In this document: piece by piece, positions 1 to 64,000 of the stretch
Layout: the number at the start of each line of letters is the position of its first letter
Numbering within the stretch: the stretch's first letter is position 1
Origin: Thermoplasmatota archaeon
Lineage (GTDB): Archaea > Thermoplasmatota > Thermoplasmata > Thermoplasmatales > Thermoplasmataceae
DNA: 64,000 bases
Direction: 5' to 3'
NCBI GenBank assembly: GCA_023484105.1
Contig: JAMDBD010000009.1
Location: 62,001-126,000 of the forward strand
Translations under genes and position numbers: made by a program
Notes under the pieces: generated by a model
The model's database searches: none
Told to the model about the DNA's origin: nothing
What the model saw: the letters and a program-made list of their open reading frames with translations, nothing else

Positions 1-203
1 AACCCTCTGAATTCATTGATCAGAGCGGACTCACAGAGCCTTACAAAAAGATTCTGCGTTCCCAGCTCATGAGGAGGATCAATACTCTCAAAAACGATGC
101 ATCAATGATAAGGGCTCTTGGCCTGAACTGTTACGTGGTGCAGGAATCCAGGCTTTATGCCAGGATGGTGATGGAGTACCAGTACGGAAAGATAGTTGGT
201 TGA
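1..203 (+). CDS. 3' end of an unidentified protein (partial)
   Basis: An open frame enters from the left edge and stops at TGA 201-203, giving about 66 C-terminal residues. The tail is basic and helical-looking, with clusters of Arg and Lys, and ends in YGKIVG. I do not recognise the family. The stop lies one base before the ATG of the next membrane-protein gene, so the two are probably co-transcribed. The function cannot be inferred from this fragment. Confidence 0.6.
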   Translation, partial: PSEFIDQSGLTEPYKKILRSQLMRRINTLKNDASMIRALGLNCYVVQESRLYARMVMEYQYGKIVG

Positions 204-45846: not shown

Positions 45847-46809
45847 TCATACGTATCTGTTTTTTGTGAAGTGCTCATACCCTTTTTTTTCAATCTTATG
45901 CCAGCGATCTTCTCTGAACAATATCGGGTCCCCATGATATAAATCACCGATAAAATGCACTTCAACGCCTGATTTTTTCATCTGCTCCCTGAACCCCTCA
46001 TAATCCTCATTGTTGACAGTGAACATGAGTTCATAGTCTCCACCGAAATTGCATGCCTCTATGACAGTATCTATGTCTGTGATATCAGCAGCCTTTTTTA
46101 TCCCACTGTAAACAGGTATGTCATCTCCCACAATTCTTGCCCCCAGACCAAAAGATTCCTTTATCTGCCAAATGGAAGAGAAAAGGCCATCAGAGAGATC
46201 GGTCATGAACTTTACCCCGCTGTCTGCCAGAATCTGTCCCTCTCTAACTCTGGGGACAAAATCAAGCATGAGCCTGATCGCATGGTTAATCCTGTACCCA
46301 GACCTATAAAGATGGTATCCAGTGACGCATTTTCCAAGTTTTCCAGTAATTCCTATGATCTGCCCTGCGGCGATTCCCGATCTCCTTATCACTTTATTTT
46401 TCAGCTGCCTGCCAAATATGGTACCGGCAAGTATCAGCTCCTTAGCCTCCTTCGTGTCGCCGCCCATGATGTACGAACCGAACTGGGAAAGCCTGCGTGA
46501 TGCACCCATGTATATTCCTTCAAGGGATTCCATTTCCGTATCTGGTGGAGCCAAAACATCAATCACCATTCCAATGGGTATACCACCCATGGCGGCAATG
46601 TCGCTGAGGTTGATCCCAGCAAGAAATTCACCGATAAGTTCATCTGGGGCACCTTCCGGAATATTGTTCTCCACTGATACAGAGTCTGAGGAGATCATAA
46701 TATAGTGCCGTCCTGATTCTATAAGAGCGCAATCTTCAGGCATTTCGTTATTCGCAAAGCGGTTGAGACGCCTGATAATCTCTCTTTCCCCAAGATCAGA
46801 AAGTTTCAT
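45847..46809 (-). CDS. thiL: thiamine-monophosphate kinase
   Basis: A 320-residue ThiL, converting thiamine phosphate to the diphosphate with ATP. Motifs are MISSDSVSVENNIP (metal-binding Asp), INLSDIAAMGG, YIMGGDTKEA and the C-terminal ACNFGGDYELMFTV. It has the PurM-like fold and family length. The upstream archaeosine radical SAM gene once ended 4 bp before this ATG. An insertion has moved that stop 143 bp away, so any translational coupling between them is lost. Confidence 0.93.
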   Translation of the reverse strand: MKLSDLGEREIIRRLNRFANNEMPEDCALIESGRHYIMISSDSVSVENNIPEGAPDELIGEFLAGINLSDIAAMGGIPIGMVIDVLAPPDTEMESLEGIYMGASRRLSQFGSYIMGGDTKEAKELILAGTIFGRQLKNKVIRRSGIAAGQIIGITGKLGKCVTGYHLYRSGYRINHAIRLMLDFVPRVREGQILADSGVKFMTDLSDGLFSSIWQIKESFGLGARIVGDDIPVYSGIKKAADITDIDTVIEACNFGGDYELMFTVNNEDYEGFREQMKKSGVEVHFIGDLYHGDPILFREDRWHKIEKKGYEHFTKNRYV

Positions 46810-46834: not shown

Positions 46835-46947
46835 TCCCTTCATATCTCTGAGTGCCAGGTTATAATCAAACTGCACGGGCAATAGATCCTCGCATTCTAT
46901 TTCATCATAATATTGGCTCAAATCGGCGTTTCTAACATATTCTGAGA
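46835..46947. repeat. 113-bp direct repeat, copy 1 (relict gene end)
   Basis: Identical to 46974-47086. Read on the minus strand it still encodes the ancestral 3' end of the radical SAM gene, running on to KGFSAAAE and a TGA at 46814-46816. It is no longer reached by translation. Confidence 0.95.
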
Positions 46948-46979
46948 ACCTTCTAAAATTGATAGTCAGCTGCTCCCTT
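46943..46979. repeat. 37-bp inverted repeat, left arm
   Basis: Perfect reverse complement of 47106-47142. It overlaps copy 1 of the direct repeat by 5 bp (TGAGA) and copy 2 by 6 bp (TCCCTT), which are the microhomologies at the two junctions. It supplies the new stop codon at 46953-46955. Confidence 0.95.
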
Positions 46980-48014
46980 CATATCTCTGAGTGCCAGGTT
47001 ATAATCAAACTGCACGGGCAATAGATCCTCGCATTCTATTTCATCATAATATTGGCTCAAATCGGCGTTTCTAACATATTCTGAGAGATCTCTGAAATCC
47101 TGTGTAAGGGAGCAGCTGACTATCAATTTTAGAAGGTTCTCATCACTGGAGCTGTTGTGCACACCTCTTTCCCTGTTTCCTCCAGTTGGATATGAAACCA
47201 CACTGAAACCTTTTTCGCTGGCCCAGAGAAGAATCCTTGCCAGAGACCAGAGTCTGGGGGGTCTGTAAAGCCCTCTCTTCCAAAGGTATTCCACGAGCGT
47301 GTTTTTCTGAATGTTCATGGGATTCACCGATATATCAGTGGAGTAAGGTGCAACGTCTGAGATTGATCGCTGGACATCGATGACAGATTCCGCTTCCGAT
47401 AGAAACGGTGGTTTCAGGAGAAGGTAACTCCTGACCTCGAATCCGTTATTTATGCAGGTCTTCGCCGCGCCTACAAACTTTGAGAACCCGGTTCCTTTGT
47501 TTATGGAATTTTTTATGATTTCGTCATTGGTGCTTTCCACACCTATGGCTATTCGTGTATTTATCTTCCGATTCTGGATTGGCTCCAGGTTTCTCTTTAC
47601 TATATACTCTGTGCGTGATTCGATAAGCAGTTTATCCACTCTGTCTTTAACAGAATCGTAAAAGTAGTCTCTAGCTTCAGCAGGAAATTCCATTGTATCA
47701 AGGAAGCTTCCGGAAGTGAAGATTTTCAGTATCATTGTATCGCCAAGATAATGAATAACACTGTCGATCTGTTTCATCAAATCCTCTGAAGTCACGGTGG
47801 ATGACACGTCGTTGAAGTAACCGCACATGCTGCAGGAGGAAAATCGGTACCATGAGCATCCTCTCGTCCTGAATATAGCGACAACAGTCTTTTCAGGGTG
47901 CCCACGTAGCCTATCCAATTCTGTCCATACAGAAACAGGCTTTGAGTTATCCGTCAAGCCACTATCTGATGGCATCAGCCTCTTCACGAATGCTGAAAGA
48001 TCTCTGTTAATCAT
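46953..48014 (-). CDS. archaeosine synthase radical SAM partner (RaSEA-like), altered C-terminus
   Basis: A 353-residue Fe-S enzyme of the COG1244 type, the likely partner of ArcS in converting preQ0-lysine-modified tRNA to archaeosine. The cysteine pattern RGCSWYRFSSCSMC (Cys53, Cys61, Cys64) is the CX7CX2C cluster of this family. The last residues KGAADYQF arise from an inverted duplication. The relict sequence downstream shows the ancestral end was KGFSAAAE with a stop at 46814. Only about six residues changed, so activity may be retained. It was once tightly linked to thiL. ArcS itself is not in the window. Confidence 0.82.
   Translation of the reverse strand: MINRDLSAFVKRLMPSDSGLTDNSKPVSVWTELDRLRGHPEKTVVAIFRTRGCSWYRFSSCSMCGYFNDVSSTVTSEDLMKQIDSVIHYLGDTMILKIFTSGSFLDTMEFPAEARDYFYDSVKDRVDKLLIESRTEYIVKRNLEPIQNRKINTRIAIGVESTNDEIIKNSINKGTGFSKFVGAAKTCINNGFEVRSYLLLKPPFLSEAESVIDVQRSISDVAPYSTDISVNPMNIQKNTLVEYLWKRGLYRPPRLWSLARILLWASEKGFSVVSYPTGGNRERGVHNSSSDENLLKLIVSCSLTQDFRDLSEYVRNADLSQYYDEIECEDLLPVQFDYNLALRDMKGAADYQF
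46974..47086. repeat. 113-bp direct repeat, copy 2
   Basis: Identical to 46835-46947. This copy is the translated one, joined upstream to the intact gene. Confidence 0.95.
47106..47142. repeat. 37-bp inverted repeat, right arm (source sequence)
   Basis: Internal coding sequence of the radical SAM gene (codons for SCSLTQ and flanks). It was copied in inverse orientation to 46943-46979. Confidence 0.95.
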
Positions 48015-63093: not shown

Positions 63094-64000
63094 TAAATAT
63101 CTTTCCGAGATTCTTCCTGTTCTTCATCTCAGAATAAGCTTTGCCAATTCCGTCCAGGAAGACCTTCTCGTGCTCCACTGCCTTCAATTGTCCACGTGAC
63201 ACCATTTCCATTGCACTTTTCATGTCCTCCGTGGTAGAACTTATGCTACCTGATACGGACAAACCTTTCAGGATTGTAACTCCAAGGGGAAGAGGAAAAG
63301 CAGCTGGAGACACATTACCTATAACAACGATCCTCCCACCGGCAGCCAATGACTTGAAAGACTTTTCAAAAGTTGGAATTCCAACAGTTTCAAGGACAAC
63401 GTCAGCCCCTCCATTTTTCTTTTTCACGATCTCATCAATTTGATCAGGGGAAATAACCTCATCAGCACCGTATTCCATTATTTTCTCGTTCTTCCACGGA
63501 GAGGTGGATTCTGCAAAAACTCTAGCTCCAAGGGCCTTCCCAATCTGGACAGCATGTATCCCTACACCTCCTCCGGCCCCTGTTACTAACAGATTTTCTC
63601 CCTTCTTGAGCCTTCCAACATGCACGAGTGCATGATATACCATTCCTGTGACACATGCTGAGATTGCAGCATCCTCATCACTCACTCCGGAAGGTATTTT
63701 CACTAGCCCACGCGCATCAGCAACTATATATTCCGAGTATGATCCGTTGCGCGTCTCCCCATATGTAATTTTGTTCTGACAAAGATTTGTATCCCCGACC
63801 TTACAGTACTTGCACTTTCCACATGGTATGTATATCAGACTGGCAACTCTATCGCCAACACTGAACCCGGAAACACCCTCGCCGACATACTCAATTTTCC
63901 CAGCTATTTCATGACCTGGGATCACCGGTAAAGTGACTCTGGGAAAGAAACCCTCCATCGTTAGTATATCCCTGTAACATATCCCTGTAACATCCTGTCT
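63080..64000 (-). CDS. zinc-dependent alcohol dehydrogenase (partial, runs off the edge)
   Basis: A medium-chain dehydrogenase. The frame stays open to the window edge beyond ATG 63958, and the upstream codons read VTGICYRDIL, which fits the catalytic-zinc cysteine region of the family, so the true start lies outside. PGHEIAGKI carries the catalytic His and Glu, the structural zinc cysteines are in PCGKCKYCKVGDTNLC, and the NAD(P) loop is GAGGGVGIHAVQIGKALGA. The C-terminal KNLGKIFIKL is complete. The substrate is unknown. Confidence 0.9.
   Translation of the reverse strand, partial: RQDVTGICYRDILTMEGFFPRVTLPVIPGHEIAGKIEYVGEGVSGFSVGDRVASLIYIPCGKCKYCKVGDTNLCQNKITYGETRNGSYSEYIVADARGLVKIPSGVSDEDAAISACVTGMVYHALVHVGRLKKGENLLVTGAGGGVGIHAVQIGKALGARVFAESTSPWKNEKIMEYGADEVISPDQIDEIVKKKNGGADVVLETVGIPTFEKSFKSLAAGGRIVVIGNVSPAAFPLPLGVTILKGLSVSGSISSTTEDMKSAMEMVSRGQLKAVEHEKVFLDGIGKAYSEMKNRKNLGKIFIKLH

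Follow-up and report, generated by a model that had tools for sequence, protein, structure and literature searches.

The 3' end of the gene for RaSEA, a radical SAM protein of archaeosine biosynthesis, has been rebuilt in this archaeon by an insertion that combines a direct duplication with an inverted copy of nearby coding sequence. We consider this insertion to be probably a real, recent and lineage-specific mutation produced by a single accident of DNA synthesis with two template switches. It lies at 46835-47142 of the window, by which we mean the whole stretch of 64,000 nucleotides that was analysed, on contig C3 of a draft genome (1.29 Mb, 34 contigs, 94.85% complete).

Anatomy of the rearranged gene end

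RaSEA (46953-48014, minus strand) codes for 353 amino acids and its membership is clear, as residues 29-331 match TIGR01210 with 359.8 bits against a curated cut-off of 212.15 bits. On the same strand, 143 nt past the RaSEA stop codon, follows thiL (45847-46809, thiamine-phosphate kinase; TIGR01379 above its cut-off), and beyond thiL, again on this strand, is an open reading frame that from reading its sequence we take to be isoleucyl-tRNA synthetase-like.

The duplicated stretch consists of two direct-repeat copies on the minus strand, 46835-46947 and 46974-47086, which are identical at 113 of 113 positions, cannot be extended as a match and start 139 bp apart. The copy adjoining thiL now stands between thiL and the RaSEA stop and would originally have been the 3' end of RaSEA; the other, of the same sequence, lies within the present RaSEA reading frame. 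Joining them is a 37-bp piece (46943-46979, plus strand) that is a perfect (37/37) and likewise maximal inverted copy of 47106-47142 (minus strand) inside RaSEA, and it is from this piece that RaSEA now takes its tail and its stop codon. It shares 5 bp with one repeat copy (TGAGA, 46943-46947) and 6 bp with the other (TCCCTT, 46974-46979). The source of the inverted piece is outside the duplicated 46974-47086, 19 bp away from it. The first-pass annotation of this DNA had described the 113-bp repeats, the 37-bp inverted copy and both overlaps, and its coordinates are exact to the base.

Identical sequence is present in the genome assembly at G000:C3:108800-109200, and Tandem Repeats Finder reads the site as a 139-bp unit in 1.8 copies. 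Searches for a tRNA gene or a multi-copy tandem array from which the 113-bp repeat might have originated found neither. Elsewhere in the window, at 63966-63993, there is a 13-bp tandem repeat (ATATCCCTGTAAC, 2.2 copies).

To place the structure against its genomic background, repeats were scanned in a 605-kb sample of this genome (about 47% of it) and in 628 kb from relatives. In the 605 kb, no exact local inverted repeat of 20 bp or more occurs besides the 37-bp pair, and among local direct repeats the 113-bp pair is far longer than any other, the next measuring 42 and 23 bp. A search for similar repeat-flanked inverted copies, which had been proposed with the initial description, yielded no comparable structure in the sampled 605 kb, nor in the 628 kb of relatives. 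The structure is thus far above chance. The same holds at its junctions: for random joins in the window, microhomology of at least 5 bp is expected with a probability of about 0.0056 and of at least 6 bp with about 0.0018, so that the joint chance is about 1e-5 if the two are independent, which argues for switching guided by pairing. The 42-bp repeat belongs to L090:9368-9747 of the same genome, where a 149-bp stretch has a 72% identical copy 231 bp on (start to start) that holds this exact match; this is possibly a diverged internal gene duplication.

Comparison with relatives and age of the insertion

The congeners are Thermoplasmata MAGs, from a family that includes Ferroplasma and Acidiplasma, and the collections used for comparison hold one genome per species, the nearest relatives being about 68-70% identical. 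A template-switch origin predicts that relatives show the short form of the site. The sister species do so: their thiL genes begin 0 and 10 nt behind the end of RaSEA, and they lack the insertion. Among more distant family members in which thiL adjoins RaSEA, the gap runs from about -4 to about 60 nt, the value varying with which start codon is taken. When the other 76 family genomes were searched at DNA level, the stretch had no match. Taken together, the sister-species gaps and this lack of matches indicate that the short form is ancestral; at about 68-70% identity, the empty site is a reconstruction and not a base-by-base alignment.

Not one difference separates the duplicated copies over 150 sites (113 + 37), which puts their divergence below about 2% (95% bound), as against about 68-70% identity to congeners. 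The insertion is therefore recent, or else conversion has kept its copies uniform, the same pair of options that had been put forward when the identity of the repeats was first seen.

A probable single event with two template switches

We replayed the event under a four-point model, in which synthesis proceeds to point 1, copies in reverse from point 2 to point 3, and resumes at point 4. When the starting point is the empty site, from which one repeat and the spacer have been taken out, the replay returns the window sequence without error whichever strand is used. The order of the points is 3-2-4-1 on the minus (gene) strand, which allows an intra-strand fold-back, and 4-1-3-2 on the plus strand, which requires an inter-strand switch.

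In terms of the gene strand, synthesis would have had little of RaSEA left to copy when its growing 3' end, ...GAAGGGA, found a partner in TCCCTT, whether on the new strand itself, folded back over a loop of 126 nt, or on the other parental strand. A further 31 bases would then have been copied, up to ...TTCTCA, whereupon the 3' end may have re-paired at TCTCA upstream on the original template and the 113-bp stretch been copied again. The outcome would be a net gain of 139 bp, an exchange of the RaSEA tail at equal length and a displacement of thiL from 4 to 143 nt behind the stop. Both the action of a polymerase and the presence of this DNA in cells are what we infer from the assembled sequence. 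The first-pass annotation had likewise proposed one polymerase jump, to the opposite strand and back, that added 139 bp. The single event and its size are recovered by the exact replay; the two routes, however, copying from the opposite parental strand or folding back of the nascent one, would end in one and the same sequence, so that nascent-strand fold-back fits equally well. As a history of the site, the proposal is very probably correct.

Known systems offer close parallels. In yeast rad27 (FEN1) mutants, fold-back insertions with duplication have been described, mostly verified by PCR or Sanger sequencing, and loss of FEN1 raises the frequency of such template-switch events; as proposed here, synthesis switches, runs in reverse for a short way and returns upstream on the original template, so that a direct duplication accompanies the inverted insert (Omer et al., PMC5677150). 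The yeast events, however, start from palindromes or imperfect inverted repeats already present in the sequence, and in a mutant (PMC5677150), whereas the present case is a natural variant of an archaeon that has FEN1, with microhomology of only 5-6 bp across a distance of 126 nt. In this genome FEN1 scores above its cut-off and is apparently intact; there is thus no sign of a mutator, and a mutator through FEN1 loss was rejected. A local DNA hairpin at the junctions was also considered as a trigger, and the junctions are not unusual in this respect when compared with shuffles. In great apes, template switches of the '4 before 1' types have been described whose products contain direct as well as inverted repeats, and their derived sequence is, like ours, given fully by L-1, 2-3 (reversed) and 4-R (Walker et al., PMC7954356); the documented events are from great apes and the present one is archaeal.

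Small inverted triplications (SITs) have the form DUP/inverted/DUP, with a median duplication of 148 bp and junctions of 6 bp (PMC13334657). The 113-bp duplications seen here, with microhomology of 5 and 6 bp, resemble them in having about 6 bp at both junctions. Two differences stand out: our inverted piece of 37 bp is far under the SIT median of 160 bp, and in SITs it copies the duplicated segment itself (PMC13334657), while here it copies neighbouring DNA 19 bp away, so nothing has been triplicated. Going by its name, the human DUP-NML-DUP/INV class has the topology found here, a duplicated block, a normal gap and a second block copied inverted, but comprises much larger copy-number variants (PMC11658439), against 139 bp in all in our case.

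Alternative explanations

The structure could instead be a chimera from amplification or library preparation, made when a 3' end folded back onto a strand that had been displaced, or a loop in the assembly graph that was built into the contig. The genome is after all a draft of 34 contigs, and perfect identity between copies is what an artefact would yield. MDA chimeras are, moreover, similar in being mostly inverted joins of near segments primed by few complementary bases, more than 90% of those within 10 kb having such bases (PMC1855051). An artefact would nevertheless need two switches in succession, the second leading back to the template first used. In MDA, direct joins at distances under 10 kb were rare (11/475; PMC1855051), and systematic chimerism should recur, yet no other such structure is seen in the 605 kb sampled from this genome. 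That assembly can duplicate sequence is evident from a related MAG (L060:3490-3843), in which an exact 127-bp duplication flanks a run of N, the only long local repeat in 628 kb of relatives and probably a k = 127 overlap that was left unmerged during scaffolding. The pattern at 46835-47142 differs, there being no N gap at the site, and a k-mer scaffolding artefact of this type was rejected. To our knowledge, the repeat lengths here, unlike that in L060, equal no common k-mer size. An artefactual origin of some kind is in our view unlikely, if still a serious concern.

Among biological alternatives, the insertion may have been built stepwise, in two events or more: the 113-bp stretch would first have been duplicated in tandem, and an inverted fragment would afterwards have been inserted or captured between its copies, for instance by end joining with a templated insert. 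Short templated inserts in end joining can yield the same sequence as seen here. However, the microhomology at either end of the inverted piece coincides exactly with an end of the duplicated stretch, all copies are identical and a single event needs fewer steps, and we regard separate events as very improbable. It is harder still to credit that the 37-bp inverted repeat is a maintained functional element, acting as an mRNA hairpin at the new RaSEA stop to regulate thiL, or as a reversible switch. The RNA structure predicted around this stop is strong (z = -7.0), and related repeat structures of the SIT kind are lost precisely by slippage from plasmids in E. coli (PMC13334657). Against this, a transcript hairpin follows automatically from the presence of an inverted copy, the structure is absent from all relatives, and the copies are too similar to reveal any conservation.

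Consequences for RaSEA and thiL

Deleting one repeat and the spacer in silico changes the RaSEA C-terminus from the present DMKGAADYQF to DMKGFSAAAE and brings thiL from 143 to 4 nt behind the stop, which reproduces the tail swap and stop shift that the initial description had called. Both the present and the reconstructed protein have 353 amino acids, so length is unchanged; complete RaSEA proteins of family members have 348-353. The six altered residues are the last of the protein and fall outside the TIGR01210 match. This is also true of RaSEA tails across the family, which are Ser-rich and, in 34 of 36 distinct sequences, close with a hydrophobic residue.

Scored against a position profile of the family, the present tail reaches -1.4 bits and the reconstructed one -7.1 bits, while relatives all score higher (2.4 to 14.7). 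Neither tail fits the family well. Since 8% of random tails score as well as the present one and all relatives score higher, no claim is made for improved fitness of the tail. A selectable effect would require that replacing an atypical acidic tail (GFSAAAE) with an aromatic-ended one nearer the family's hydrophobic end, together with unhooking thiL from its operon partner, made a difference to the cell, with the repeats keeping the change reversible; we think this very doubtful. The insertion would be reversible because the two 113-bp copies, by recombining or through slippage, would return the site to its old form. The mutation itself is probably neutral or mildly costly.

A full-text literature search found no relevant reports of two-switch replication errors in archaea. 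As the mechanism is already established elsewhere, the value of the case lies in the example and not in a new principle: it is a good, clean example of an established mutational class in an archaeon, with function not demonstrated. If real, it would be a clean natural two-switch replication error in this domain, and would indicate that one accident can at once swap the tail of a protein and break a tight coupling between genes.
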